64,000 nt of DNA. Origin: Hespellia sp. (lineage in GTDB: Bacteria > Bacillota > Clostridia > Lachnospirales > Lachnospiraceae). The translations under genes were made by a program, and so were the position numbers. Under the pieces are notes generated by a model. It had not been told where the DNA came from, ran no database searches, and saw only the letters and a list, made by a program, of their open reading frames with translations. Positions within the stretch are counted from its first letter, which is position 1. The number at the start of each line of letters is the position of its first letter. This document shows positions 46,095-61,291 of this stretch, one piece after another. Where the stretch lies: contig JAQUVD010000004.1 of NCBI GenBank assembly GCA_028693555.1, forward strand, positions 1 to 64,000, in the 5' to 3' direction.

Positions 46095-48620
46095 ATGAAG
46101 AAATATAACAGTACGGATATTCCAAAGACAGATCGAATTACACGGCTGGTAGACAATCTGTATGCGAAGATGCCAGAGATTGAATCGGCAAGAGCAGTTC
46201 TGATTACAGAGTCTTATAAAGAAACAGAAGGATTGCCCGTTATTCTTAGACGTGCGAAGGCGTTTGAGCATATCCTGAAGAATATCCCAATTATTATTCG
46301 TGACGAAGAACTGATTGTAGGAAGTTCGACCATTGCTCCAAGAGGATGTCAGACTTTCCCGGAATACTCATATGAGTGGCTGGAGGAAGAGTTTGACACC
46401 GTTGAACATCGAAGTGCCGATCCTTTCTATATTGCCGATCAGACAAAGGAAGAAATAAAAAAAGCCGATGCTTATTGGAAGGGAAAGACAAACATTGAGC
46501 TTGCGACTTCTTATATGGCACCGGAAGCCATCAAAGCGATGGAACACAACATGTTTACCCCTGGAAACTATTATTACAATGGTGTCGGACATGTAACTGT
46601 GAAGTATGATGAGGTTATGGCAATCGGTTTTGAAGGAATTGCAGCAAAAGCACAGGCTGAACTGGATTCATGCAATGTAGGCGACGCGGATTATGCAACA
46701 AAATCTCGCTTTCTGCAGGCGTCAATCATCAGCTGTAACGCAGCGATTGCATATGCTCAGCGTTATATGGTTCTGGCAAAGCAGGAGGCAGATGCGTGCA
46801 AAGATCCGAAGCGAAAAGAAGAACTCCTTACAATCGCGAGAAACTGTGGAAGAGTTCCGGCAAAGGGCGCGACCACATTTTATGAGGCGATGCAGAGTTT
46901 CTGGTTTGTACAGCAGCTTCTGCAGATGGAATCGAGCGGACACTCTATTTCGCCCGGACGTTTTGACCAGTTCCTATACCCGTATTATAAGGCAGATAGG
47001 AATGCCGGCATCCTGACAAGAGAATTCGCACAGGAATTGCTGGATTGCTTCTGGGTAAAATTAAATGATCTGAATAAATGCCGCGATGCAGCAAGTGCAG
47101 AAGGCTTTGCAGGCTACAGCCTGTTCCAAAATCTGATCGTTGGCGGACAGAACGAAGAGGGAATTGATGTGACGAATGATTTATCGTTCATGTGCATTCA
47201 GGCTTCCAAACATGTCTTTTTACCAATGCCTTCTTTATCCATTCGTGTATGGAACGGATCACCTCATGAACTGCTTATGAAAGCAGCTGACTTGACAAGA
47301 ACCGGAATCGGACTTCCTGCTTACTATAATGATGAAGTGATTATTCCTTCTCTGATGAGCCGTGGACTTACTTTAGAAGAGGCTAGAAATTATAACATTA
47401 TCGGCTGCGTGGAACCTCAGATTTACGGAAAGACAAATGGATGGCATGATGCAGCGTTCTTTAACATGTGCCGGCCACTTGAGATGGTATTTTCAAATGG
47501 TATGGACAAGGGGGAACAGATTAGCATTCAGACTGGCCGCGTGGAAGACATGAAGACATTTGAAGAATTTTTTGATGCATATAAAGCACAGATGAAGTAT
47601 CAGATTTCTCTGATGGTAAATGCAGATAATGCAATTGATGTCGCACATGGTGAACGCGTACCACTTCCTTTCCAGTCAAGTATGGTAGATGACTGTATGA
47701 AACGTGGAAAGACAATGGAACAGGGTGGAGCGGTTCATAACTTTACTGGTCCGCAGGGCTTTGGAATCGCCAATGTTGCTGATTCACTCTATGCAATTAA
47801 ACAGCTTGTGTTTGATCAGAAAAAATTTACTCTCACGCAGTTTAAAGAAGTACTGGCATTGAACTATGGAAGTGGTTTTGACCGGATTACAGCCTCTGAA
47901 ATGACAGTTGAGATTGTTAAGAACCTGGAAGCGCAGGGTAAACATGTATCTTCGGATGAGATTGCAAAGATTATTTCCGGAGTGATGAATGCAAAACCTT
48001 CCGCAGAAGAACAACGGTTGTGTGATGAACTGAAGAATGCAATCGACGAGATACCGAAATTTGGAAATGATAATGATGAAGTGGATGCATTTGCAAGAGA
48101 AGCGGCCTATACATATACGAAGCCATTGCTTGATTTTCATAATCCAAGAGGAGGACAGTTCCAGGCGGGTCTGTATCCGGTATCAGCGAATGTTCCACTC
48201 GGAGCACAGACAGGTGCAACTCCGGACGGACGACTTGCGCATACACCTGTTGCAGATGGTGTTTCACCGTCAGCAGGAAAAGATGTTAAGGGACCGACCG
48301 CTGCAGCAAATTCAGTTGCAAAATTAGATCATGGGATTGCTTCCAACGGTACGTTGTTTAATCAAAAGTTCCATCCATCTGCTTTGAGCGGAGAGAGAGG
48401 ACTTGACAATTTTGTGAACCTGATTCGTGCTTATTTTGATCAAAAAGGAAGTCACATGCAGTTTAATGTTGTGGATCGTGCAACACTTCTTGATGCACAG
48501 GAGCATCCGGAGCAGTATGCACATCTGGTTGTCCGGGTTGCTGGATACAGTGCGCTCTTTACAACATTATCAAAATCATTGCAGGATGATATTATCCGCA
48601 GAACAGAGCAGGGGTTTTAA
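46095..48620 (+). CDS. Glycyl radical diol dehydratase (probable B12-independent 1,2-propanediol dehydratase)
   Basis: 841 residues. The thiyl-radical cysteine is Cys438 in GCVEPQ, and the glycyl radical site is Gly817 in VRVAGYSA. GCVEP is the diol/glycerol dehydratase and choline-lyase type, unlike PFL's paired cysteines. With an aldolase that yields lactaldehyde, CoA aldehyde dehydrogenase and PduL in the same locus, the substrate is most likely (S)-1,2-propanediol, giving propionaldehyde; glycerol is the main alternative. AAAGGAG precedes ATG 46095. No clear extra N-terminal targeting extension is seen. It is oxygen-sensitive and activated by the product of the next gene. Confidence 0.9.
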   Translation: MKKYNSTDIPKTDRITRLVDNLYAKMPEIESARAVLITESYKETEGLPVILRRAKAFEHILKNIPIIIRDEELIVGSSTIAPRGCQTFPEYSYEWLEEEFDTVEHRSADPFYIADQTKEEIKKADAYWKGKTNIELATSYMAPEAIKAMEHNMFTPGNYYYNGVGHVTVKYDEVMAIGFEGIAAKAQAELDSCNVGDADYATKSRFLQASIISCNAAIAYAQRYMVLAKQEADACKDPKRKEELLTIARNCGRVPAKGATTFYEAMQSFWFVQQLLQMESSGHSISPGRFDQFLYPYYKADRNAGILTREFAQELLDCFWVKLNDLNKCRDAASAEGFAGYSLFQNLIVGGQNEEGIDVTNDLSFMCIQASKHVFLPMPSLSIRVWNGSPHELLMKAADLTRTGIGLPAYYNDEVIIPSLMSRGLTLEEARNYNIIGCVEPQIYGKTNGWHDAAFFNMCRPLEMVFSNGMDKGEQISIQTGRVEDMKTFEEFFDAYKAQMKYQISLMVNADNAIDVAHGERVPLPFQSSMVDDCMKRGKTMEQGGAVHNFTGPQGFGIANVADSLYAIKQLVFDQKKFTLTQFKEVLALNYGSGFDRITASEMTVEIVKNLEAQGKHVSSDEIAKIISGVMNAKPSAEEQRLCDELKNAIDEIPKFGNDNDEVDAFAREAAYTYTKPLLDFHNPRGGQFQAGLYPVSANVPLGAQTGATPDGRLAHTPVADGVSPSAGKDVKGPTAAANSVAKLDHGIASNGTLFNQKFHPSALSGERGLDNFVNLIRAYFDQKGSHMQFNVVDRATLLDAQEHPEQYAHLVVRVAGYSALFTTLSKSLQDDIIRRTEQGF

Positions 48621-48623
48621 CTT

Positions 48624-49415
48624 ATGGATTACATGAAGACGAAAGGACGTATATTTGATATTCAAAGATACTCCATTCATGATGGGAATGGAATCCGAAC
48701 AATCGTTTTTCTAAAAGGATGTGTTCTCCGATGTCGCTGGTGTTGTAATCCGGAATCACAGTCGTTTGATATTCAGACGATGAAGGTTCTTGGAAAGCCG
48801 AAGGTGATTGGTGAGGATGTGACCGTGGAAGAGGTTATGGAGACGGTTGAAAAGGACAGGCCTTATTATCGGAGAACCAAAGGCGGACTTACACTTTCCG
48901 GTGGGGAGAGTCTTTGTCAGCCGGAGTTCGCAAGAGATTTGCTTCACGCAGCAAAAAGCGCAGGCATTTCAACCGCAATGGAGAGTATGGCTTGTGCAGA
49001 TTACAGCGTGATTGAAACGCTCCTTCCTTATCTGGATCAGTATTTAATGGATATCAAGCATATGAATCCGGAAAAGCATAAAGAATTCACCGGGAAATCG
49101 AATGAATTGATGCTAGAGAATGCAAGAAAGGTAGCAGAGTCCGGAATGACAGAACTCAGTATCCGAGTTCCGGTAATTCCGACTTTCAATGATACACTGG
49201 AAGAGATGAAGGCGATTGCAGTATACGCGGATTCACTTCCGGGAGTAAACAGAATTCATTTACTTCCGTATCATAGGCTTGGTCAGGATAAATATGCCGG
49301 ACTGAACCGTCCATATCTGATGGGAGATTTTCTTCCACCGACGAATGAATTTATGGAAGAATTAAGAACGATGGTTGAGGCAGAGACAAGTCTTGTCTGT
49401 CAGATTGGAGGTTGA
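48624..49415 (+). CDS. Radical SAM glycyl radical enzyme activase
   Basis: 263 residues. The radical SAM cluster motif is Cys33-x3-Cys37-x2-Cys40 (GCVLRCRWC), followed by CNPES and the GGE segment LSGGESL. It would abstract hydrogen from Gly817 of the dehydratase. Between CNPES (residue 45) and YYRR (about 74) there is only a short cysteine-free linker, so the eight-cysteine ferredoxin insert seen in many diol-dehydratase and choline-lyase activases is missing. It starts 3 bases after the dehydratase stop. Confidence 0.92.
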   Translation: MDYMKTKGRIFDIQRYSIHDGNGIRTIVFLKGCVLRCRWCCNPESQSFDIQTMKVLGKPKVIGEDVTVEEVMETVEKDRPYYRRTKGGLTLSGGESLCQPEFARDLLHAAKSAGISTAMESMACADYSVIETLLPYLDQYLMDIKHMNPEKHKEFTGKSNELMLENARKVAESGMTELSIRVPVIPTFNDTLEEMKAIAVYADSLPGVNRIHLLPYHRLGQDKYAGLNRPYLMGDFLPPTNEFMEELRTMVEAETSLVCQIGG

Positions 49416-49420
49416 TTACA

Positions 49421-49798
49421 GTGGGATATACAGACGGGATGTCTGAAGAGACGAAACAGCGAATTGTTCAGGAGCTTGTTCCAGGCAAGCAGATCACACT
49501 GGCCCATATTATTGCGAATCCGGACAAAGAGCTTTATATCAAGCTCGGCATGAATCCAAATATTGATTATGCAAAATCCGCCATCGGAGTTATGACAATC
49601 AGCCCGGCAGAGACGGCAATCATCATCGCGGACATTGCAATAAAAGCGGCGGGGATTGAAATTGGTTTCGTGGACCGCTTCAGCGGTTCTCTGATTGTGA
49701 CAGGAACTGTTTCGGAAGTAGAGGCGTCCACGAACGCTATTCTTGATTATGTTGACCGCAAGCTTGGATTTACAATTTGTGAAATCACAAGGACGTAA
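49421..49798 (+). CDS. BMC-H shell protein, circularly permuted PduU/EutS type
   Basis: 125 residues. It reads QELVPGKQITLAHIIANPDKELYIKLG then IGVMTISPAETAIIIADIAIKAAGIEIGF, the permuted order seen in PduU and EutS hexamers, whose N-terminus forms a small barrel over the pore. There is no cysteine in the pore region, so it is not the Fe-S GrpU variant. GTG 49421 lies 9 bases after GGAGG; a TTG at 49412 would overlap that site. Confidence 0.87.
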   Translation: MGYTDGMSEETKQRIVQELVPGKQITLAHIIANPDKELYIKLGMNPNIDYAKSAIGVMTISPAETAIIIADIAIKAAGIEIGFVDRFSGSLIVTGTVSEVEASTNAILDYVDRKLGFTICEITRT

Positions 49799-49803
49799 AA
49801 AGA

Positions 49804-50277
49804 ATGAAAAAGATTATTTTGATTGGCAGGAGCGAAAGTGGCAAGACAACATTGACGCAGGCACTAAAAGGGAAGAAAATCAAATATCACAAAACACAGT
49901 ATGTCAATTATCTGGATGTGATTATTGATACGCCCGGGGAATATGTACAGACACAGGGGCTGGGCGCGGCGCTTGCCGTGTATACCTATGAAGCAGATAT
50001 TGTAGGGCTGCTCGTAGCAGCGACGGAGCCCTACTGTTTGTTTCCACCCAATATCACATGCATGGCGAACCGAGAGGTGATCGGCATTGTGACAAAGATT
50101 GACAAGCCTGATGCGGATGTGGATCAGGCAACCAGATGGTTACAACTTGCAGGCTGTAAGAAGATTTTCTACGTGAATTCAAAGAATAATGACGGCGTCA
50201 TTGATATTCTAGAATATCTAAGAGAAGAAGGCGATGTCATGCCGTGGGAAGTCGACAAACAGAGTGCAGGCAAGTAA
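49804..50277 (+). CDS. EutP/PduV-type small GTPase-like protein
   Basis: 157 residues. P-loop GRSESGKTTL, switch segment DTPGEYVQ, and base-recognition TKID fit the EutP/PduV family. PduV has been linked to microcompartment dynamics and EutP to acetate kinase activity, but the role is not settled. It closes the first BMC transcription unit; a new promoter follows at 50345. Confidence 0.85.
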   Translation: MKKIILIGRSESGKTTLTQALKGKKIKYHKTQYVNYLDVIIDTPGEYVQTQGLGAALAVYTYEADIVGLLVAATEPYCLFPPNITCMANREVIGIVTKIDKPDADVDQATRWLQLAGCKKIFYVNSKNNDGVIDILEYLREEGDVMPWEVDKQSAGK

Positions 50278-50284
50278 TAAGTTG

Positions 50285-50347
50285 TGAAAAACAACAAAAA
50301 CAACACAAAACTTTCAAAATCACACAAAAAACAACATATATATGTTG
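50285..50347 (+). promoter_or_regulatory. Operator region of BMC promoter 2
   Basis: A-rich direct repeats of ACAAC/ACACAAA type (50289-50331) lead into the perfect 16-base palindrome CAACATATATATGTTG (50332-50347), which overlaps the -35. DeoR-family repressors commonly bind ACAAA-type repeats, and a DeoR gene lies in the operon. Confidence 0.55.
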
Positions 50348-50374
50348 ACAGATGATGTGGTATGGGAGTACAAT
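50345..50374 (+). promoter_or_regulatory. BMC promoter 2
   Basis: TTGACA (50345-50350), 18-base spacer, TACAAT (50369-50374). Confidence 0.65.
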
Positions 50375-50420
50375 GTGTTAAGAAACAACAAAATTCAAAC
50401 AATTTCAGGAGGAAATGAAA

Positions 50421-51233
50421 ATGCAAAACGAATTTGAAATCAAAAAACAAATGTGTGAGATCGGCAAAAGAGTTTATGGAAGAAACATGGTTGCTGCAAA
50501 TGATGGTAACTTCTCTGTAAAATTGAACGACAATGAGTTTTTATGTACACCTACAGGTGTTTCAAAAGGGTTCATGACACCAGAGTATATTTGTAAAGTA
50601 GATGCTCAGGGTAATACAATTCAGGCAAACAAAGGATTCAAACCATCCTCAGAGATTAAAATGCATATGCGTGTATATGCAAAGAGACCTGATGTAGGTG
50701 CTGTTGTGCATGCTCATCCTACGTTTGCAACAAGTTTTGCAATTGCTGGTATTCCGCTTACACAGCCAATCATGCCAGAGGCAGTTATTGCTCTTGGATG
50801 TGTTCCAATCGCTGAGTATGGTACTCCTTCTACAATGGAAATCCCAGATAACCTTGAGAAATATTTACCATATTTTGATGCAGTATTATTGGAGAGCCAC
50901 GGCGCACTTACATGGTCTACAGATCTTTTAGCTGCATACCACAAAATGGAATCATTAGAATTCTATGCTGAGTTATTATACAAATCAAAACAGCTTGGCG
51001 GACCAAAAGAATTCGACAAAGAGCAGATCAAAAAATTATACGAGATCAGAAGACAGATGGGACTGCCAGGAAAACACCCTGCAGATCTTTGCCAGAACAA
51101 GACAGAGTTAAACTGCCATAATTGTGGTGGCTGTGCAATCGCTCACAGTGATGCTGCTCCAGCTATTAATTCTGCTGATGCTGATACAGTTGCTGAGATC
51201 ACTAAGAAAGTTATGGCTCAGTTAGGTTTATAA
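50421..51233 (+). CDS. Class II aldolase, probable L-fuculose/rhamnulose-phosphate aldolase, with C-terminal BMC-targeting helix
   Basis: 270 residues. The class II aldolase/adducin fold (first ~215 residues) includes MVAANDGNFSVKL, zinc-ligand VVHAHPTFA and LLESHGALTW. It would split L-fuculose 1-phosphate (or rhamnulose 1-phosphate) into DHAP and lactaldehyde. After a Cys-containing linker (NCGGCAIAHSDAAP) comes the amphipathic helix ADTVAEITKKVMAQLGL, typical of encapsulation peptides. I chose ATG 50421, eight bases from AGGAGG, over ATG 50415. It leads the second BMC operon. Confidence 0.87.
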   Translation: MQNEFEIKKQMCEIGKRVYGRNMVAANDGNFSVKLNDNEFLCTPTGVSKGFMTPEYICKVDAQGNTIQANKGFKPSSEIKMHMRVYAKRPDVGAVVHAHPTFATSFAIAGIPLTQPIMPEAVIALGCVPIAEYGTPSTMEIPDNLEKYLPYFDAVLLESHGALTWSTDLLAAYHKMESLEFYAELLYKSKQLGGPKEFDKEQIKKLYEIRRQMGLPGKHPADLCQNKTELNCHNCGGCAIAHSDAAPAINSADADTVAEITKKVMAQLGL

Positions 51234-51271
51234 TCTGAGAAAATCATAACATTTGAGAAGGAGGTAATCTC

Positions 51272-52660
51272 GTGCCTGTTAATGAGAATATGGTACAAGA
51301 CATTGTACAAGAAGTATTAGCAAAGATGCAGATTGCAGAGGCTCCTACTGGTAAACACGGCGTGTTTACTGATATGAACGACGCAATAGCAGCAGCAAAA
51401 AAATCTCAGAAGATTCTGAGAAACATGACGATGGACCAGAAAGAGAAAATTATTTCTAATATTCGTAGAAAAACAAAAGAAAATGCAGAAATTTTTGCTC
51501 GTATGGGTGTGGAAGAAACCGGAATGGGAAATGTTGGAGATAAAATCTTAAAGCATCACCTGGTTGCAGAGAAGACACCCGGAACAGAAGATATTAAGAC
51601 AGAAGCACTTTCCGGAGACAGAGGATTGACATTAGTTGAGATGGGACCGTTTGGAGTAATCGGAGCCATCACACCATGTACAAACCCTAGCGAGACCGTC
51701 CTATGTAATTCAATGGGCATGATTGCAGGAGGCAATACGGTTGTATTTAATCCGCATCCTGCAGCCATTAAGACTTCTATCTATGCAATTAATCTTGTGA
51801 ATGAGGCTTCACTGGAGGCTGGCGGACCTGACAATATTGTCTGTACAGTTGAAAAGCCAACATTGGAATCAAGCAATGTCATGATGAAGCACAAAGACAT
51901 TCCACTGATTGCCGCAACAGGTGGTCCCGGAGTTGTCACAGCAGTTTTATCCTCAGGCAAACGTGGTATTGGAGCCGGAGCCGGCAACCCGCCAGCGCTT
52001 GTTGATGAGACGGCGGATATCCGCAAAGCGGCAGAAGACATTGTAAATGGCTGTACATTTGATAACAACCTTCCATGTATCGCTGAGAAGGAGATTGTTG
52101 CAGTGGATTCGATCGCAGATGAACTGATGCATTACCTTGTGAATGAACAGGGATGCTACGCGGTGAATGAAGACGAGCAGCAGCGACTGATCGATGTTGT
52201 ATTAGCAAATGGAAAACTGAATAGAAAATGTGTTGGCCGTGATGCAAAGTCGTTACTTGGAATGATTGGTATTAATGTGCCATCGAATATTCGCTGCATT
52301 ACATTTGAAGGAGCAAAAGAACATCCGCTGATTGCAACAGAACTTATGATGCCAATTCTTGGCGTTGTAAGAGTCAAAGATTTCGAGGCAGGTGTGGAAG
52401 CAGCTTTATGGTTAGAACATGGCAATCGCCATTCTGCACACATTCACTCTAAGAATGTGGATCGTATTACTACATATGCAAAGGCATTAGATACAGCAAT
52501 TTTAGTAAAGAATGGTCCTTCTTACGCAGCGTTAGGTTTCGGTGGAGAAAGCATCTGTACATTTACAATTGCAAGTAGAACTGGCGAAGGCCTTACAAGC
52601 GCAAGCACATTCACAAAGAGAAGAAGATGTGTAATGTCAGACAGCTTGTGTATTCGATAG
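51272..52660 (+). CDS. pduP: CoA-acylating propionaldehyde dehydrogenase (PduP type)
   Basis: 462 residues. It would oxidise propionaldehyde to propionyl-CoA with NAD inside the shell. The catalytic cysteine is Cys269 in FDNNLPCIAEKE; the GAGAGNPPALVD and VVFNPHP segments are typical of PduP/EutE. The first ~20 residues (ENMVQDIVQEVLAKMQI) form an amphipathic helix like the known PduP encapsulation peptide, separated by a short linker. It starts at GTG 51272 behind AAGGAGG. Confidence 0.92.
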   Translation: MPVNENMVQDIVQEVLAKMQIAEAPTGKHGVFTDMNDAIAAAKKSQKILRNMTMDQKEKIISNIRRKTKENAEIFARMGVEETGMGNVGDKILKHHLVAEKTPGTEDIKTEALSGDRGLTLVEMGPFGVIGAITPCTNPSETVLCNSMGMIAGGNTVVFNPHPAAIKTSIYAINLVNEASLEAGGPDNIVCTVEKPTLESSNVMMKHKDIPLIAATGGPGVVTAVLSSGKRGIGAGAGNPPALVDETADIRKAAEDIVNGCTFDNNLPCIAEKEIVAVDSIADELMHYLVNEQGCYAVNEDEQQRLIDVVLANGKLNRKCVGRDAKSLLGMIGINVPSNIRCITFEGAKEHPLIATELMMPILGVVRVKDFEAGVEAALWLEHGNRHSAHIHSKNVDRITTYAKALDTAILVKNGPSYAALGFGGESICTFTIASRTGEGLTSASTFTKRRRCVMSDSLCIR

Positions 52661-52673
52661 GAGGAAAAGACAC

Positions 52674-53903
52674 ATGGATATGAATTCAACAAATATTGAA
52701 GAGATTGTAAAGCAGGTCTTATCTAATATGACAGGCGGAGCTTCTCAGACAGCAGCCCCTGCTGCAAGTGCTCCAAAGGCACAGGGAAATATCCCGGCAA
52801 CAGCCAGAGTGGCAATGCTTACAGAATTAGAACATTATGAAATCAAAGAATTCCCAATGCCGGAAGTTGGCGATGACGATATTCTTGTGAAAGTAGAAGG
52901 CTGTGGAATCTGTGGAACAGATGCTCACGAATTCAAGAGAGATCCATTTAGCCTGATCCCGGTTGCACTCGGACATGAGGGTACCGGAGAAATCGTTAAG
53001 ATGGGTAAGAATGTAACAAAGGACAGTGCCGGCAAACCAGTTACAATTGGCGATAAAGTCGTAACATGTATGATTTTTGCTGATGATCCGGACATTACAA
53101 TGTATGATTTAAACAAACAGAATGTTGGAGCTGCTTCTGTATACGGATTACTCCCGGACGATGATGTTCATTTGAACGGATGGTTTTCTGATTACATCTT
53201 AATCCGTGGCGGATCCTTCGGATCAACATTCTTCAACGTAAGTGACTTAGACTTAGAGTCAAGAATCTTAATTGAGCCTTGTGCAGTATTAATTCACGCT
53301 GTAGAGAGAGCAAAGACAACAGGAATCCTTCGTTTCAACTCAAGAGTTGTTGTTCAGGGATGTGGACCAATCGGTCTGATCTGTATCGCAGTTCTTCGCA
53401 CAATGGGAATCGAGAATATCGTAGCTGTTGACGGAAATGCTCAAAGACTTGAATTTGCTAAGAAGATGGGTGCTGAGAAATCAGTGAACTTCATGGATCA
53501 CAAAGGAATTGAAGCATTGACAGCAGGTGTAAAAGATGCATTCGGCGGAAACCTTGCAGACTTCGCTTTCCAGTGTACCGGAAATCCAATGGCTCATGCT
53601 AACATTTACAAATTCATCAGAAACGGTGGCGGACTTTGTGAGTTAGGATTCTTCATCAATGGTGGAGATGCTACAATCAATCCTCACTTTGATATCTGTT
53701 CAAAAGAGATCACAACAGTAGGTTCTTGGGTGTACACATTAAGAGATTACGCTACAACGTTTGATTTCCTGAAGAGATCTCAGGCAATTGGTCTTCCAAT
53801 GAAGGAATTAATCACAGATAAATTCCCATTAGAACAGATCAACGAAGCACATCAGACAAACCTGGCAATGACAGGATTAAAGATTGCTATCATTAATAAA
53901 TAG
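52674..53903 (+). CDS. Zinc-dependent alcohol dehydrogenase with N-terminal BMC-targeting helix
   Basis: 409 residues. Medium-chain dehydrogenase fold: catalytic zinc site around Cys80 (CGICGTDAHE) and GHEGTGEI at residue 100, with a nucleotide-binding GCGPIGLICIAVL. The four-cysteine structural zinc lobe is absent. About 45 extra N-terminal residues hold the amphipathic NIEEIVKQVLSNM and an Ala/Pro linker, resembling an encapsulation peptide. It could reduce lactaldehyde to 1,2-propanediol or propionaldehyde to propanol and recycle NADH from PduP. AGGAGG precedes ATG 52674. Confidence 0.85.
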   Translation: MDMNSTNIEEIVKQVLSNMTGGASQTAAPAASAPKAQGNIPATARVAMLTELEHYEIKEFPMPEVGDDDILVKVEGCGICGTDAHEFKRDPFSLIPVALGHEGTGEIVKMGKNVTKDSAGKPVTIGDKVVTCMIFADDPDITMYDLNKQNVGAASVYGLLPDDDVHLNGWFSDYILIRGGSFGSTFFNVSDLDLESRILIEPCAVLIHAVERAKTTGILRFNSRVVVQGCGPIGLICIAVLRTMGIENIVAVDGNAQRLEFAKKMGAEKSVNFMDHKGIEALTAGVKDAFGGNLADFAFQCTGNPMAHANIYKFIRNGGGLCELGFFINGGDATINPHFDICSKEITTVGSWVYTLRDYATTFDFLKRSQAIGLPMKELITDKFPLEQINEAHQTNLAMTGLKIAIINK

Positions 53904-53925
53904 GATGTTCGTTAGGAGATAAATC

Positions 53926-54240
53926 ATGGGAGAAGCAGTAGGAATCTTAGAAGTGTTCGGTCTTACAACTGCGTTTATGGCGGCAGATGCCGGATGTAAA
54001 GCGGCGAATGTATGGCTTGAAAAATTCGATAAGAACAAACCGGGTAATGCTGATGCACTCCCTGTACCACTCCTCGTTACGATTAAGTTCAGAGGAAGTG
54101 TAACGGATGTTGAAGCAGCAGTCGAGGCTGGAAAAAAAGTAGCGGATTCACTGACGGGTGTCGTACAGAGCTACGTCATCGCACATCCAACTGCGGATTG
54201 CGAGAAGATGCTGAAAATCAGCGCTTTCGATAAGGACTAA
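53926..54240 (+). CDS. BMC-H-like shell protein with enlarged pore loop
   Basis: 104 residues. The single BMC fold is recognisable (GILEVFGLTTAFMAADAGCKAANV...IKFRGSVTDVEAAVEAG). Where the paralogues have the pore loop EKIGSG, this protein has FDKNKPGNADALPVP, about nine residues longer and rich in Pro/Asn. The pore would therefore differ in size or be capped. It is the first of four BMC-H genes in a row and starts 22 bases after the alcohol dehydrogenase. Confidence 0.82.
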   Translation: MGEAVGILEVFGLTTAFMAADAGCKAANVWLEKFDKNKPGNADALPVPLLVTIKFRGSVTDVEAAVEAGKKVADSLTGVVQSYVIAHPTADCEKMLKISAFDKD

Positions 54241-54301
54241 TCTATGATAAACTAGTAACAGACAATTAATCAAATAATTCATAATTCAGGAGGAAATAAA
54301 A

Positions 54302-54577
54302 ATGGCACAGGAAGCATTAGGAATGGTAGAAACAAGAGGACTTACAGCAGCAATCGAAGCAGCAGACGCAATGACAAAAGCAGCAGAAGTAACATTAGTA
54401 GGAACAGAGAAAATCGGTTCCGGATTAGTAACAGTTATGGTTCGTGGAGATGTTGGAGCTGTAAAAGCAGCAGTAGAGAGCGGATCAACAGCGGCAAGCA
54501 GACTTGGAGAATTAGTAGCAACACATGTAATCCCAAGACCACACAATGATGTAGAAAAAATCCTTCCTACTGTATAA
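54302..54577 (+). CDS. BMC-H major shell protein (PduA/PduJ type), copy 1
   Basis: 91 residues, one BMC domain, typical hexamer-forming shell tile: [20 protein letters not shown], pore loop EKIGSG, and the C-terminal [17 protein letters not shown]. By eye 76 of 91 positions match the second copy at 54938. AGGAGG lies just before ATG 54302. Codon choice is strongly biased to GCA/ACA/GTA, fitting high expression. Confidence 0.95.
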
Positions 54578-54609
54578 GTTGAAGTAGCACAGGAAAAAGG
54601 AGCATCCTT

Positions 54610-54894
54610 ATGAGCAAATCATATGGCTTTATTGAAATAACAGGTGTGTCAGCAGCAGTAGATGCGTTGGACATCATGTGTAAAACGTCAAGCGTCGAAC
54701 TTGAGACCTGGGAAAGAAAGCTAGGTGGAAGGCTTGTAACAATTGTTGTCGGCGGTGATGTTTCGGCAGTAACAGAAGCAGTGGAAGCGGCAAAAGCAAA
54801 TGCAATCAAGAAGCCTGTTGCCACAGGTGTGATTGCCAGTCCACATGAAGAGATTGTCAAATTGATTGAATTTAGCGCAAGTCGTTTCAAATAA
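54610..54894 (+). CDS. BMC-H shell protein, divergent
   Basis: 94 residues, single BMC domain ([19 protein letters not shown], pore loop [20 protein letters not shown]). It differs clearly from the two PduA-like copies and may form a minor hexamer with different pore chemistry, because the pore loop has KLGG in place of KIGSG. It lies between the two near-duplicate copies. Confidence 0.92.
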
Positions 54895-54937
54895 ACGATA
54901 CGGTACTAATAACATTTTATTTAAGGAGGAAAACATT

Positions 54938-55216
54938 ATGTCACAGGAAGCATTAGGAATGGTTGAAACAAGAGGTTTAGTAGCAGCAATCGAAGCAGCA
55001 GATGCAATGTGCAAAGCAGCGAATGTAACACTTGTAGGAACAGAGAAAATCGGTTCTGGATTAGTAACAGTCATGGTTCGTGGAGATGTTGGAGCAGTAA
55101 AATCTTCAGTTGAAGCAGGCGCAGCAAGTGCAGCAGCTCTCGGAGAGATGATTGCAACACATGTTATCCCAAGACCACACACAGATGTAGAGAAGATTTT
55201 ACCAACAGTAAAATAA
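54938..55216 (+). CDS. BMC-H major shell protein (PduA/PduJ type), copy 2
   Basis: 92 residues, near-duplicate of the gene at 54302, with the same pore loop EKIGSG and the same C-terminal [13 protein letters not shown]. Differences cluster in the second half (residues 56-72), on the helix that follows the pore strand. AAGGAGG precedes ATG 54938, which excludes a longer in-frame start. A strong hairpin follows before pduL. Confidence 0.95.
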
Positions 55217-55233
55217 TTTTTAAATGATGGTCA

Positions 55234-55260
55234 GGCCTTATGATGACAAGTCATAAGGCC
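55234..55260 (+). promoter_or_regulatory. Perfect hairpin between the shell genes and pduL
   Basis: GGCCTTATGA (55234-55243) and TCATAAGGCC (55251-55260) flank TGACAAG. No T-tract follows. It may stabilise the 3' end of the shell-gene mRNA or act as a processing site. It also buries an in-frame ATG at 55240. Confidence 0.6.
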
Positions 55261-55308
55261 GAAAGGCTATCAGAATTTGCTCATTACGAGGAAAGAGTAG
55301 GTGTCGAT

Positions 55309-55953
55309 TTGGAGACAAAAAATATTGAATTGATTACTCGCATGGTCATGGAGGCTGTTGCGAAAGAAGATACGTCTGATTCTGGGTTTTTGGTGCCAAT
55401 CGGTGTATCAGCAAGACATATCCATCTCACGCAGGAGCATGTAGAAGCTCTTTTTGGATCTGGATATCAATTAACGAAGAAAAAAGAACTTATGGGTGGG
55501 CAGTTTGCATCAAATGAGACTGTGACCATTGTAGGTTTAAAGCTTAGAGCTATAGAAAATGTCAGAATCTTAGGACCTGTAAGAAAAGCTTCTCAAGTTG
55601 AAATCTCAGCGACAGATGCTGTTAAATTAGGAGTCAAAGCTCCAATCCGCGAATCAGGTAAGATCGCGGGCTCCGCACCGGTTGCAGTTGTCGGACCAAA
55701 AGGTGCACTCTACTTACAGGAAGGCTGCATTATCGCAATGAGACATATTCACATGTCGCCAAAAGATGCACAGGCAGCCGGAGTACACGATGGTGACATC
55801 GTATCAGTAAAGGCAGATAACGAAAGAGGAACCATCTTTAATCACGTAAAGATCAGAGTGGATGACAGTTTCACGTTAGAGATGCATATTGATACAGATG
55901 AGGCGAATGCATGTAAGATTTCAACAGGACAGACAGTAACAATTATCAAATAG
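55309..55953 (+). CDS. pduL: Phosphate propanoyltransferase (PduL)
   Basis: About 214 residues from TTG 55309 (237 if ATG 55240 is used). Two PduL domains: VPIGVSARHIHLTQEHVEALFG and AMRHIHMSPKDAQAAGVHDGD supply the zinc-binding histidines. It converts propionyl-CoA and phosphate to propionyl phosphate and recycles CoA inside the shell. The N-terminal NIELITRMVMEAVAKE is an encapsulation-type helix. The TTG has AGGTG five bases upstream, while ATG 55240 lies within a stable hairpin without a ribosome site, so the shorter start is favoured. Confidence 0.88.
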   Translation: METKNIELITRMVMEAVAKEDTSDSGFLVPIGVSARHIHLTQEHVEALFGSGYQLTKKKELMGGQFASNETVTIVGLKLRAIENVRILGPVRKASQVEISATDAVKLGVKAPIRESGKIAGSAPVAVVGPKGALYLQEGCIIAMRHIHMSPKDAQAAGVHDGDIVSVKADNERGTIFNHVKIRVDDSFTLEMHIDTDEANACKISTGQTVTIIK

Positions 55954-55985
55954 ACAGTAAATGATGAAGGTAGATGGAGGAAGAT

Positions 55986-56249
55986 ATGGTTATTGGTAAA
56001 GTAGTGGGAAGCATTGTTTCCACAAGAAAAAGTGAGAAACTGGTTGGCAACAAATTTATGATTGTAGAGCCACTGGATCATATGAAAGCATCTACTACAT
56101 CTACAAATCAATTTGTTGCAATTGATAATATCGGAGCAGGCATTGGAGAAATTGTTCTGGTGGCACAGGGCAGCGCAGCAAGAATCGGTTGTGGATGCGA
56201 GAATGCCCCAGTTGATGCAGCTATCGTAGGAATTGTAGACCAAGCATAG
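55986..56249 (+). CDS. eutN: BMC-P pentameric vertex protein (EutN/CcmL type)
   Basis: 87 residues: MVIGKVVGSIVSTRKSEKLVGNKFMIVEP, then GIGEIVLVAQGSAAR and PVDAAIVGIVD, the standard EutN/CcmL barrel. Pentamers close the vertices of the polyhedral shell. ATG 55986 has GGAGG five bases upstream; an in-frame ATG at 55974 lies before that site. It is the only vertex gene seen in the window. Confidence 0.94.
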   Translation: MVIGKVVGSIVSTRKSEKLVGNKFMIVEPLDHMKASTTSTNQFVAIDNIGAGIGEIVLVAQGSAARIGCGCENAPVDAAIVGIVDQA

Positions 56250-56256
56250 GAGTGAA

Positions 56257-57597
56257 ATGAAAAGCATGAACATTAAGGAATTGAGCAATGTCATCCGTGA
56301 AGCAGGTGTTGTCGGAGCCGGTGGAGCCGGATTTCCAACATATGTGAAAATGGATGAAAGAGCAAATACCATAATCATGAACTGTGCAGAATGTGAGCCT
56401 TTATTGAAGCTGCATAGACAGCTATTAGAGCAGTATGCATATGAGATCATGAAAACATTTAATCTGATTGCTGAAACTGTAAAAGCAGACGAAGCAATTA
56501 TCGGAATTAAAAAAGAGTATAAGGCAACGGTTCAGGCATTGAATAAATATATCGACGAATTTCCAAAAGTTCGCATCCATTTATTAGATGGTGTTTATCC
56601 AATGGGTGATGAAGTTGTATTGATTTATGAAGCAACAGGAAGAGTTGTTCGTCCGGGTGGACTTCCAATCGAGGAAGGCATCGCTGTATTTAACGTAGAG
56701 ACAATCTACAACGTATACAGAGCGTTGGAACAGAATACACCTGTTGTAGACAAAGTTGTATCCATTGTTGCTGAAGTAGAGCATCCTGTTACAGTAAGAG
56801 TACCGATTGGATGTACCATCGAAGAAGTCGTAGCTTTAGCCGGAAAAACAACGGTCAAAGACCCTGTATATCTTGTTGGCGGACCTATGATGGGAAACAT
56901 TGGAACCGGATCACAGCCAGTTACTAAGACAACAAATGCAATCTTAGTATTGCCACCGGATCACTATCTGGTTAAGAAGAAAAACAGTAATCCATCCATC
57001 GAGATGAATCGTGCAGCTTCTATTTGCTGTCAGTGTCAGATGTGTACAGATCTTTGTCCAAGACATGCACTGGGACATCCAATTCAGCCACATCTCTTTA
57101 TGAGAGCGGCATCGAACAAGGATTTCCGTGATGTGAATCCATATATCAATACCATGTTCTGTTCTTCTTGCGGATTATGTGAATTATTCTCATGTCCACA
57201 GGGACTTTCACCGAGATCGCTTATGGCAGTATACAAAGGCGGCCTTCGCAAAGCCGGTGTAAAACCACCGCAGGGTGTTGTACCGTCTCCTGTAAAAGAA
57301 TCAAGAGAGTACAGAAAAGCACCGGAAGAGAGACTGGAAGCGCGTTTGGGATTACATAAATACAATGTAGATGCTCCACTTAGTGATACCGTTGTTTCAA
57401 TGGATAAAGTAAAAATCCTTTTAGGACAGCATATCGGAGCGCCTGCGAAAGCAATCGTGAAAAAAGGCGATATGGTAACAACAGGGCAGATGATTGGACA
57501 GCCTGCAGATGGTCTAAGCGTTGGAATTCACGCTTCCATCAGTGGTAAGGTAACAGATGTAGGCGATTCATATATTGTGATCAGTAAGACAAAGTAG
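56257..57597 (+). CDS. PduS/RnfC-type flavin and Fe-S electron-transfer protein
   Basis: 446 residues. N-terminal GVVGAGGAGFPTYVK and NCAECEP fit the RnfC/Nqo1-like flavin/NADH domain, followed by a SLBB-like region. Two [4Fe-4S] ferredoxin motifs come next: Cys257/258, 260, 263, 267 (CCQCQMCTDLC) and Cys302, 305, 308, 313. A C-terminal barrel-sandwich-like end (VGIHASISGKVTDVGDSYI) follows. In pdu systems PduS reduces cobalamin, but this locus has no B12 enzyme. It more likely moves electrons across the shell through the adjacent PduT-like protein. Confidence 0.85.
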   Translation: MKSMNIKELSNVIREAGVVGAGGAGFPTYVKMDERANTIIMNCAECEPLLKLHRQLLEQYAYEIMKTFNLIAETVKADEAIIGIKKEYKATVQALNKYIDEFPKVRIHLLDGVYPMGDEVVLIYEATGRVVRPGGLPIEEGIAVFNVETIYNVYRALEQNTPVVDKVVSIVAEVEHPVTVRVPIGCTIEEVVALAGKTTVKDPVYLVGGPMMGNIGTGSQPVTKTTNAILVLPPDHYLVKKKNSNPSIEMNRAASICCQCQMCTDLCPRHALGHPIQPHLFMRAASNKDFRDVNPYINTMFCSSCGLCELFSCPQGLSPRSLMAVYKGGLRKAGVKPPQGVVPSPVKESREYRKAPEERLEARLGLHKYNVDAPLSDTVVSMDKVKILLGQHIGAPAKAIVKKGDMVTTGQMIGQPADGLSVGIHASISGKVTDVGDSYIVISKTK

Positions 57598-57610
57598 GAG
57601 GACGTAACTG

Positions 57611-58159
57611 ATGAGTAAAGCAATAGGAATGATAGAATTTAAAACGGTAGCGTCTGGTATCACGGCTGCAGATGCCATGGTTAAGACAGCACAAGTTGAG
57701 ATTGTGGAAGCACAGACCGTTTGTCCTGGAAAATACATTGCAATTGTAACCGGTGATTTAAGTGCAGTAAAGGCCGCAGTTGACGCTGCGAAGGCAATGT
57801 ATCCGGAACATTTGATTGACAGCTTTGTTTTGGGTAATCCTCACGAGGATATTTTCCCGGCAATTTATGGAGCTTCTAATGTTGAGGATGTCAGTGCGTT
57901 AGGTATTCTCGAGACATATGATGCTGCTTCAATTATCGTAGCGGCAGATATGGCAGCAAAGACTTCGATTGTACAGTTAATCGAATTACGTATTGCAAAA
58001 GGTATGTGTGGTAAATCATATATGTTATTGACAGGTGAAGTGTCAGCAGTACAGGCTGCGATTGATAAATCCAAAGCAGCGATTGCAGATGATGGTATGT
58101 TCCTGGATTCTTCTGTCATCGCACATCCGGACAAACAGATGATTCAATCAATCTTGTAA
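57611..58159 (+). CDS. BMC-T tandem-domain shell protein (PduT type)
   Basis: 182 residues with two BMC domains (about 3-85 and 96-182), forming a pseudohexameric trimer. Cys38 in AQTVCPGKY occupies the position of the Fe-S ligand cysteine in PduT, so a [4Fe-4S] cluster in the pore is plausible. It directly follows the PduS-type gene, the expected electron-transfer partner. A second cysteine (GMCGKSY) lies in the second domain's pore region. Confidence 0.92.
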   Translation: MSKAIGMIEFKTVASGITAADAMVKTAQVEIVEAQTVCPGKYIAIVTGDLSAVKAAVDAAKAMYPEHLIDSFVLGNPHEDIFPAIYGASNVEDVSALGILETYDAASIIVAADMAAKTSIVQLIELRIAKGMCGKSYMLLTGEVSAVQAAIDKSKAAIADDGMFLDSSVIAHPDKQMIQSIL

Positions 58160-58198
58160 TGAGATTTGCTAATTTATCCGAAAGGAGCGACAGATATT

Positions 58199-58960
58199 AT
58201 GCTTGCATTAGAAAGACGAAATCTTATCTTAGAAAAGTTGCAGGAAGATAAGCGCGTTGTAGTCAGTGAACTCAGTCAGTTATATGGCGTATCTGAAGAA
58301 ACGATCCGAAGAGACCTGGACAAATTAGATAAAGATGGATTAGCAATTAAAAGTTATGGCGGAGCGGTAATCGATGAGAATAATAACATCGATATGCCGT
58401 TCAACGTCAGAAAGAAAAGTAACGTGACCGGCAAACAGAAGATTGCAGATCTTGTTGCATCCCTTGTAGAGGATGGAGACCATGTGATGATGGATGCCAG
58501 TTCTACCAGTGTTTTTGTTGCTAAAGCATTAAAGAATAAAGAGCGGCTTACGATTATTACAAATTCCATAGAAATTATCATCGAACTCTCAGATGTATCC
58601 GGCTGGAATATCATTTCCTCCGGTGGAAGTCTCAAGGAAGGTTATCTTGCGTTGGTTGGACCAAAGGCCGTAGCCGGAATTAGTTCGTATAATGTGGAAA
58701 AGACAATTATATCTTGTAAAGCTTTCGATCTAAAAAAAGGATTTTCCGATGCAAACGAAGAATTGTCACAGGCGAAGCAGACCATGCTTCATGCTGGAAA
58801 AGAATGCATTTTGGCAGTCGATTCAAAGAAATTTGAAAAATTTGCATTTGCTAAAGTCGGAGATTTAAATGATATTGATATTTTGGTGACAGATATGAAG
58901 CCATCAGAAAAGTTTCTGAAGTTATGTAAAGAGAAGAATGTAAAATGTATGTATCCGTAA
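58199..58960 (+). CDS. DeoR-family transcription regulator
   Basis: 253 residues. The N-terminal DeoR helix-turn-helix is clear (VVVSELSQLYGVSEETIRRDLDKL, then GGAV). The C-terminal sugar-phosphate sensor resembles ribose-5-phosphate isomerase (MMDASSTSVFVAKAL, SGGSLKEGYLALVG). It probably represses both BMC promoters and responds to a pathway phosphate such as fuculose or rhamnulose 1-phosphate, or DHAP. ATG 58199 follows AAAGGAG. Confidence 0.88.
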   Translation: MLALERRNLILEKLQEDKRVVVSELSQLYGVSEETIRRDLDKLDKDGLAIKSYGGAVIDENNNIDMPFNVRKKSNVTGKQKIADLVASLVEDGDHVMMDASSTSVFVAKALKNKERLTIITNSIEIIIELSDVSGWNIISSGGSLKEGYLALVGPKAVAGISSYNVEKTIISCKAFDLKKGFSDANEELSQAKQTMLHAGKECILAVDSKKFEKFAFAKVGDLNDIDILVTDMKPSEKFLKLCKEKNVKCMYP

Positions 58961-58983
58961 GCGGATAATAGGGAGTAAGTCAT

Positions 58984-60129
58984 ATGAAGACATTTAAGTT
59001 AGATACAGTAATACATTATGGAGACAATGCCCTTGGACGATTGAGTGAGATTCCATACAAGAGAGTACTGATTATTACAGATCCTTTTATTGCAAAAGGA
59101 CCAATGATTAGTATGATTACAGCTCCATTAAAAAAAGGTGGAATCGAATATGATATTTTCTTTGACGTCGTGCCTGATGCACCGATTGAAAAGATTATCG
59201 TAGGTGTTAAGAAATTCCTAGAATATGAGCCGGAAGCAGTGATTGCAGTCGGTGGTGGCTCTGCAATCGACTCGTCAAAATCAATTCGTGAATTTGCATT
59301 TAAGGCGAATCCTTACGGGGAAGTTGGACTGATTGCAATTCCAACGACAAGTGGAACGGGATCAGAAGTGACATCATTTGCAGTTGTGAATGATACAAAA
59401 GCACAGATCAAGTATCCGTTGGTTTCGGACAGTCTGACCGCAGATGAAGCAATTCTCGATGCAGAATTAGTAAAGAGTGTACCGCCTTCTATTACAGCAG
59501 ATACGGGAATGGATGTGTTCACGCATGCACTTGAGGCATATGTGAGCTCCGAGCATAATGAATTTGCTTCTGCTTTGGCAGAAAAGGCAATTGAAATCTG
59601 TGGAGTATTTTTACTTCGTGCATATCTGGATGGATCAGATACGCATGCGAGGCAGAAGATGCATGTTGCATCCTGTCTGGCCGGTATATCATTTAATTCT
59701 GCTTCGTTAGGAATCACACATAGCATGGCGCATCAGTTAGGTGCTCAATTCCATATTCCACACGGACGTGCAAATGCCATGTTACTGCCACTGATTATTG
59801 AATTCAATTCAGATATTCATACATCAAGTAAGAGCAAGAAAGAATATGATCCGGTCGTAAAGAGATATGCAACGGTCGCACATACATTGGGACTTAGCAG
59901 TTATAATAAGATTATGAGTGTACGTTCTCTTGTGAACTGGGTACAGTTCATGTTGAAAGAAATGAAGATTCCACAGCATATTTCGGAAATCGGAACGATT
60001 ACGGTGGATCAATATATGAGCAAAGTAAGCGTTATGGCAGATGCTGCATTAGCAGATGCATGTACAGTAACGAATCCAAGAGTCCCTACAAAAGAGGACA
60101 TTATGAAACTATATCAGAAGCTTTGGTAG
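58984..60129 (+). CDS. Iron-dependent alcohol dehydrogenase (PduQ/EutG type)
   Basis: 381 residues of the group III alcohol dehydrogenase family. NAD-binding GGGSAIDSSKS is followed by PTTSGTGSEVTSFAVV, and metal-ligand segments DVFTHALEAYVS, HSMAHQLGAQFHIPHGRAN are intact. Likely 1-propanol dehydrogenase, or lactaldehyde reductase as in FucO. Unlike the zinc enzyme at 52674 it has no obvious targeting extension. GGAG precedes ATG 58984; the ParA gene follows by 23 bases. Confidence 0.9.
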   Translation: MKTFKLDTVIHYGDNALGRLSEIPYKRVLIITDPFIAKGPMISMITAPLKKGGIEYDIFFDVVPDAPIEKIIVGVKKFLEYEPEAVIAVGGGSAIDSSKSIREFAFKANPYGEVGLIAIPTTSGTGSEVTSFAVVNDTKAQIKYPLVSDSLTADEAILDAELVKSVPPSITADTGMDVFTHALEAYVSSEHNEFASALAEKAIEICGVFLLRAYLDGSDTHARQKMHVASCLAGISFNSASLGITHSMAHQLGAQFHIPHGRANAMLLPLIIEFNSDIHTSSKSKKEYDPVVKRYATVAHTLGLSSYNKIMSVRSLVNWVQFMLKEMKIPQHISEIGTITVDQYMSKVSVMADAALADACTVTNPRVPTKEDIMKLYQKLW

Positions 60130-60152: not shown

Positions 60153-60938
60153 ATGACAACAACGATTTGTTTTGCAAACAATAAAGGCGGAAGTGGAAAA
60201 TCCACTTCCTGTTCTAATATAGGATATGCACTCTCGGCGATGGGAAAAAAGGTACTCATGATTGATGGCGATATGCAGCTCAATTTGTCACTTTCGTTCT
60301 TTGATGAGGATGATGTACTTGCGTATGCCAGCAGTGGTGAGAATCTATATGAAGCAATCAAGAATCAAAAAGATCTGACGGATTATATCATCCATACGAA
60401 ATATGAGAATCTTGATTTGATTCCGTCTTCAACGCTGATGAGTTCTATTGAATATGAATTATTTACAAAATGGCAGAGAGAATTCATCCTAAAAAAATGT
60501 TTAAAATCAATTCAGGAATCAGAAGTTTATGATTATATATTGATTGACGCACCGCCGACACTTGGTGGATGGGTGATGAATATTCTGATTGCATCTGATT
60601 ATCTGATCATTCCGGTCGAGGCGAGCCCATGGGGGTTGTTCGGTCTTGCGAATATGTTTGAATATTTCAGGGCGGTTCAAGAGATGGCACCGAATCTGAA
60701 ATTGATGGGAATTGCAGTCACAAAGGTTGACATGAGAAAGAGCTACTTTAAGCAGACAATCGAGACGCTGCATGAACTGGAAGGGGTTCATATCTTTGAT
60801 TCATGTATTCGCGTAGACAGTTCGGTGGAATGGTCACAGGATAACAGTGCACCAGTTGTTGCATATAAAAAAAGCAGTAGAAGCGCAAAAGAGTATATGG
60901 AATTAGCCAAGGAGGTAGAAAACTATGGCAGTAGGTAA
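60153..60938 (+). CDS. ParA/MinD-family ATPase in the BMC operon
   Basis: 261 residues. Deviant Walker A NNKGGSGKST near residue 11 with the signature lysine, LMIDGD (Walker A'), and DYILIDAPPTLGG (Walker B) define a ParA-type dimerising ATPase. There is no N-terminal DNA-binding extension. Its place in the BMC operon suggests nucleoid-based positioning of shells, as McdA does for carboxysomes. ATG 60153 follows GAGGTG. Its 3' end overlaps the next gene by 14 bases. Confidence 0.87.
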   Translation: MTTTICFANNKGGSGKSTSCSNIGYALSAMGKKVLMIDGDMQLNLSLSFFDEDDVLAYASSGENLYEAIKNQKDLTDYIIHTKYENLDLIPSSTLMSSIEYELFTKWQREFILKKCLKSIQESEVYDYILIDAPPTLGGWVMNILIASDYLIIPVEASPWGLFGLANMFEYFRAVQEMAPNLKLMGIAVTKVDMRKSYFKQTIETLHELEGVHIFDSCIRVDSSVEWSQDNSAPVVAYKKSSRSAKEYMELAKEVENYGSR

Positions 60939-61221
60939 AGGAAGCATCAATCGTGTATCAAAAGCGGTAGACGAAAAAATCGTTACACCGGTAGAAGCAA
61001 AATCGGTGGAAGAAAAGAAAGAGGCTGCTGTAAAAGCGACAGCAGTAAAGAAGCCTGCAGCAAAGGCCACAGCGAAAACTCCAGCTAAGAAAACTACATC
61101 GCGAAAACCGGCAGCTAAAAAAACTGTGGTTTCAAAACCAAGTGCTCAGGTTGAAAAAATAATCGGTAAAAAAGAGGTACATTATGGTGTGGGATCTACA
61201 CTTCCGACATTCCTGATGTAA
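60925..61221 (+). CDS. Lys/Ala-rich small protein, putative ParA partner
   Basis: 98 residues, no recognised family. Residues 27-75 are low-complexity and strongly basic, with repeated KPAAK/TAKTPAKK/RKPAAKK blocks, similar in style to histone-tail-like DNA- or polyanion-binding segments and probably disordered. A short non-repetitive tail (VHYGVGSTLPTFLM, 85-98) may be a docking motif. A strong AAGGAGG lies before ATG 60925 inside parA, so it is certainly translated with it. It may link BMC cargo or shell to ParA, as McdB does, but it has no tryptophan and no McdB likeness. Confidence 0.75.
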   Translation: MAVGKGSINRVSKAVDEKIVTPVEAKSVEEKKEAAVKATAVKKPAAKATAKTPAKKTTSRKPAAKKTVVSKPSAQVEKIIGKKEVHYGVGSTLPTFLM

Positions 61222-61244: not shown

Positions 61245-61291
61245 AAAGCTGTATTTATGTATAGAATTTTCTAGCATAGATACAGCTTTTT
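61245..61291 (+). terminator. Terminator at the right edge of the BMC operon
   Basis: AAAGCTGTAT (61245-61254) pairs with ATACAGCTTT (61280-61289) with further inner pairing, followed by TT. Confidence 0.8.

Follow-up and report, generated by a model that had tools for sequence, protein, structure and literature searches.

The window, a stretch of 64,000 nucleotides from Hespellia sp., contains a GRM5-type operon followed by a gene for a ParA/Soj-type ATPase, a gene for a small Lys/Ala-rich protein and a terminator (Table 1). The operon encodes a GRE, an activase, BMC-H proteins, EutP/PduV, a class II aldolase, AldDH, Zn-ADH, PduL, EutN, PduS, PduT, DeoR and Fe-ADH. According to the GRM5 definition of PMC6325248, the GRE, activase, class II aldolase, PduS/PduT and shell genes place the locus in this group, and with the GRM5 fucose/rhamnose loci of that review it shares a GRE with an aldolase, aldehyde and alcohol dehydrogenases, PduS and PduT. 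The review makes no mention of ParA.

Table 1 Features in and around the ParA gene pair of the window
Feature	Position	Strand	Description
GRM5-type operon upstream of ParA	46095-60129	+	assigned by gene content
ParA/Soj-type ATPase	60153-60938	+	261 aa, deviant Walker A KGGSGKS
Small adaptor (ParA partner)	60925-61221	+	98 aa, Lys/Ala-rich
N-terminal box MAVGKGSINRVSKA of the small protein	60925-60966	+	identified by conservation; candidate ParA-contact peptide
Variable middle of the small protein	60967-61176	+	Lys/Ala-rich; in relatives, ParB_N or a short linker takes its place
C-terminal tail VHYGVGSTLPTFLM of the small protein	61177-61218	+	six C-terminal residues form the family motif; candidate BMC-contact motif
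Intrinsic terminator at the operon end (hairpin and U-run)	~61245-61291	+	A/T-rich; -26.5 kcal/mol, z -5.8

The sequence-only reading had described a ParA and an overlapping basic, low-complexity protein of 98 residues ending a BMC operon before its terminator, and the coordinates, the hairpin and the GRM5-like genes all bear this out. The ATPase matches Pfam AAA_31 (E=1.3e-53) and has the deviant Walker A of the ParA/MinD-type ATPases that characterize McdAB systems. The partner gene follows immediately within the operon, also as in McdAB; it has a strong ribosome-binding site (AAGGAGG) and shares 14 nt with the end of the ParA gene. The small protein contains 20 Lys and 15 Ala residues, with a net charge of +14 and a pI of 10.2; the composition also confirmed that it lacks Trp, as had been stated. 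No Pfam domain scored over the cut-off in this protein. A EutP/PduV-type GTPase, a protein likewise proposed for BMC positioning, is encoded within the same operon (49804-50277), so that two candidate positioning systems coexist there. The genome of the window has two BMC gene neighbourhoods beyond the GRM5 locus (G000:C41:16782-18736 and G000:C19:11595-12208), and thus the ParA pair might act on compartments of more than one type. A defence reading of the window was rejected, as PADLOC gave one weak ATPase-motif match only.

When the window ParA was compared with PDB profiles, ParA (8ray, 6e-37) and Soj (5e-30) matched better than McdA (6noo, 1e-15), and Foldseek with a predicted model of moderate confidence (pLDDT 77) gave the same order. 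Judged by its sequence, the ATPase is therefore a Soj-type ParA and not a carboxysome McdA. Among 295 genomes of the order, drawn without selection, those positive for ParA encoded proteins with 59-100% identity to the window ParA, and no other match was better than E 1e-40. A protein-pattern scan of GTDB contigs yielded 80 more ParA loci at 67-95% identity.

The gene following ParA was subsequently examined in these loci. It encoded a small protein with both family ends in 11/11 ParA-positive genomes of the order draw, and a partner was recognized in 61 of 93 ParA loci, overlapping the ParA stop in every one of the 61, by 10-26 nt. The recurrence of this arrangement and of the conserved protein ends in relatives indicates that the pairing is more than chance. 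Many of the partner genes begin with GTG or TTG. The family signature consists of MxVGKxSIxRA at the N-terminus and LPx(Y/F/H)LL at the C-terminus. In the N-terminal box, S7, I8 and R10 are near-invariant and G4 and K5 are strongly conserved, the K5/R10 box giving the partner the basic N terminus expected from McdAB; the first 20 residues of the window protein have a net charge of +2. At the other end, P at -5, L at -2 and an aromatic-type residue at -3 are near-invariant, the last being Y in 47, H in 8, F in 3 and W in 1 of 59 partners. Because the count of 61 loci had selected on the tail, including P at -5 and L at -2, the selection was repeated on the 80 scanned loci with the N-motif alone. 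This gave 50 genes, one of them cut by a contig end, and the C-motif was present in 49/49 complete partners. The small protein of the window had been credited with a distinct tail of 14 residues; a conserved C-terminal motif does exist, but it comprises only the last six residues, LPTFLM in the window, with Phe at -3.

The middles between these constant ends do not align with one another and are interchangeable: they are Lys/Ala-rich, or reduced in short forms of 51-70 aa in total, or replaced by a ParB_N domain. ParB_N (PF02195) scored above the cut-off in four partners and more weakly in others, which ties the family to ParA partners. Partners of this type (L048, L035, L092, L097, L087, L235 and L014) have both end motifs and lack the DNA-binding part of ParB. 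In a low-confidence model of one ParB_N-type partner, a folded core resembling ParB has a helix on its N-terminal side, and the C-terminal helix and tail are separate from it. Adaptors containing a ParB domain have apparently not been reported so far.

We then compared the distribution of the pair with that of BMC shell genes, scored as PF00936. Shell genes were found in 74/295 genomes of the order draw and in 11/11 of those carrying ParA (Fisher 1.4e-7, a value inflated because relatedness among the ParA-positive genomes, which fall in six genera, is ignored). In one genus (g6), G214 has both ParA and BMC genes, and G073 and G199 have neither. Indeed, all 80 genomes from the independent, protein-only ParA scan carry shell genes, comprising 50/50 chosen for having no shell gene in the ParA flank and 30/30 of the remainder, as do two ParA-containing genomes of another order. 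Of the 80 scanned loci, some of which are on short contigs, only about 23 had BMC-operon genes within 10 kb of ParA, and the distance from ParA to the nearest listed BMC gene was tens to more than 100 kb in G173, G269 and G131. Since all ParA-positive genomes are BMC-positive though the genes are mostly unlinked, the pair is tied to BMCs in trans, and this co-occurrence supports an McdAB-like positioning system that acts in trans. The sequence-only reading had counted occurrence mainly away from BMC loci as evidence against positioning; the pair is indeed mainly away from them by neighbourhood, but not by genome content. Scanning BMC operons alone accordingly misses most copies of the pair. 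BMC-positive genomes without this ParA are common (63/74), and BMCs thus do not require it.

The type of compartment served is broader than first supposed. Four of the 11 ParA-positive genomes of the draw (G050, G190, G203 and G208) have BMC loci and no close propanediol-dehydratase GRE, in which the distribution of the pair differs from that of GRM5 loci. Of the loci in G050, one is propanediol-type and contains an adenosyltransferase-like gene and another is ethanolamine-type, with identities judged by eye; the BMC loci examined among the GRE-less genomes look B12-type or ethanolamine-type. Hence, of the proposal that the pair distributes glycyl-radical microcompartments, the unity of the gene pair and its co-occurrence with BMC shell genes stood, but its specificity for glycyl-radical compartments did not.

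The presence of ParA in BMC loci had been noted earlier (PMC4207490; PMC8262871), and Basalla et al. 2024 described 'McdB-like' proteins with a C-terminal Tyr or Phe at GRM and PDU loci (PMC11321042). The window pair shares with McdAB and the McdB-like proteins (PMC8262871, PMC11321042) the gene order, in which a small partner comes after an ATPase of the ParA family, the association with BMC genomes, and a partner with a basic N terminus, a low-complexity middle and an aromatic residue within the last five positions. The absence of any resemblance to McdB, stated from the sequence, and the suggestion that the adaptor may be undescribed are therefore not supported. In PMC11321042, McdB-like proteins are encoded near BMC operons and have Tyr or Phe among their five final residues; LPTFLM at a GRM5 operon agrees with this, the 8/59 relatives with His departing from it. 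The kind of pair is thus already known; the partner family is likely identical with the GRM group of that study, and the function of the window pair is presumed by analogy. There are also differences. Compared with carboxysome McdA, the ParA here is nearer to Soj/ParA by sequence and fold; the window partner has Phe at -3 in place of the invariant C-terminal Trp of carboxysome McdB; and the present family has a specific LPxYLL ending and some members that contain ParB_N.

Taken together, we consider it probable that ParA and its small partner position bacterial microcompartments in the manner of McdAB. In such a system, ParA-ATP dimers would bind the nucleoid non-specifically, and the small protein would coat compartments via its C-terminal LPx(Y/F)LL tail. 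Contact of its basic N-terminal box with ParA would stimulate ATP hydrolysis and release ParA locally, and the compartments would follow the resulting ParA gradient in a diffusion ratchet, becoming spaced over the length of the nucleoid and passed to both daughter cells. The middle, rich in Lys and Ala, would serve as a flexible, basic spacer and may make DNA contacts as well. Both proposed contacts have precedents. ParA/MinD partners contact their ATPase via a basic N terminus (PMC10241942), and an alpha-McdB needs its first 20 residues, which also suffice, for contact with McdA (PMC12204374); by analogy with McdB and ParB, the N-terminal box is proposed to be the ParA-contact peptide. A C-terminal aromatic residue is needed for the association of McdB with carboxysomes (PMC11321042), from which the tail is proposed to be a shell-binding motif. 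Several findings count against positioning: the pair is near BMC genes in only about a quarter of loci, the tail aromatic is Phe in the window and sometimes His in relatives, and 31/93 ParA loci have no following partner gene, which indicates that ParA can do without a partner gene in some cases. The spacing and inheritance of metabolosomes other than carboxysomes is an open question (PMC8262871), for which the family provides a clear candidate, amenable to testing, in gut Lachnospirales, with two conserved ends that can be mutated separately, natural variants of the middle and one clade with ParA and no adaptor gene.

Other explanations were weighed against positioning. The Lys/Ala-rich protein could be a passive nucleoid tether or condensate factor, binding DNA like histone H1-type tails and pinning the compartments, with ParA only modulating. 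The net charge of +14 agrees with this, as do weak matches, below the threshold, to histone H1-like families (HC2 E=2e-4); however, the Lys/Ala middle is dispensable, as partners of 51-61 aa and those of the ParB_N type keep the same ends, and conservation sits in these two ends, as expected of an adaptor. We therefore regard a tether as improbable. A role of the pair in regulating expression or assembly of the fucose/rhamnose operon, not compartment position, is brought to mind by the partnerless clade described below, in which the gene after ParA is that of an AraC-type regulator, with rhamnose genes next and then a GRM5 operon. This seems decidedly improbable, given that in most loci the pair stands apart from any such operon, that Pfam recognized no sequence-specific DNA-binding domain in either protein, and that the design of the small protein is adaptor-like.

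An ordinary ParAB partition system of a plasmid or integrated element, lying beside the operon by chance, was also considered. Like ParABS/Soj-Spo0J, the pair has a classical ParA fold with the catalytic motifs and an adjacent partner with a basic N terminus, in a minority with ParB_N; the ParA fold is closest to Soj/ParA, and the nearest plasmid relatives (42% identity) are paired with full ParB partners. In contrast to ParABS, the partners lack the ParB DNA-binding part (the window partner has no ParB domain, and some relatives have ParB_N only), plasmid linkage is absent, and the genomic companion is a set of BMC genes, whose complete co-occurrence a partition system would leave unexplained. 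Furthermore, no ortholog of the ParA was found in plasmid and phage records, where the best identities were 42% and 36%, and viral contigs contained no relative above 36%. As viral contigs, phages and plasmids together hold only 26-42% relatives, the partition reading was rejected as very unlikely.

Positioning by ParA and an adaptor also has to accommodate the 31 partnerless loci; in one further locus (L047), the contig stops within the partner gene. Only three changes are needed to account for the partnerless loci on the ParA tree: 28 of the 31 form one clade (SH-aLRT 95), mainly of Mediterraneibacter and relatives, and the others are two Acetatifactor MAGs and G419. When a partner encoded in trans was sought in nine of these genomes by the tail pattern, which covered Tyr only, the portion of the candidate places that was examined held short or unrelated ORFs; a His- or Phe-tailed partner in trans is possible. 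All 26 partnerless genomes examined have one BMC-H with a Lys/Ala/Thr-rich N-terminal extension of approximately 35-91 aa. In the main clade, the block AKAPAK(T/A)VxRV(R/K) is constant within this extension and the surrounding linkers vary. Extended BMC-H proteins with the KTVxRV box are encoded, for example, at L252 17879-18376 (G300) and in L276, L278, L284, L289 and others. The RV box was found in 25/26 partnerless genomes versus 0/42 partner-containing genomes, with the KTVxRV and the later box regex both written after the sequences had been viewed. A Lys/Ala-rich extension alone is not diagnostic, as it occurs in 14/42 partner-containing genomes of a sample enriched for long frames. ParA-negative BMC genomes picked for long frames likewise had long Lys/Glu-rich N-terminal extensions of BMC-H (L309-L327, e.g. 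L320 and L321).

The score matrix of the partner N-box gave values on the BMC-H extensions far below those of true partners (shuffle p 0.01-0.7), so that the match is not convincing, and the independent-pairs test of partner loss against the BMC-H box had three pairs only, too few to reach significance. The link between adaptor loss and extended BMC-H, with three independent losses, is thus suggestive only. It is conceivable, if rather unlikely, that the shell took over after adaptor loss, the basic box of the BMC-H extension contacting ParA directly and the compartment carrying its own ParA partner. If so, the partner-containing relatives would mark a route on which a ParB-domain partner gave way first to a minimal adaptor with two ends and then to a tail built into the shell. 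The adaptor-less clade with Lys/Ala-extended BMC-H has apparently not been reported so far.

Two observations on gene order in partnerless loci were also made. At L252 670-9135 of Mediterraneibacter glycyrrhizinilyticus, ParA, an AraC-type regulator, rhamnulokinase-like and rhamnose-isomerase-like genes are followed by a GRM5 operon, all genes but one being on one strand. Several partnerless loci (L042 9285-9989, L058 9233-9949 and L051 8365-8925) have, upstream of ParA, a gene that by eye resembles HD-type (p)ppGpp hydrolases; in L042 and L058 it is directly upstream.
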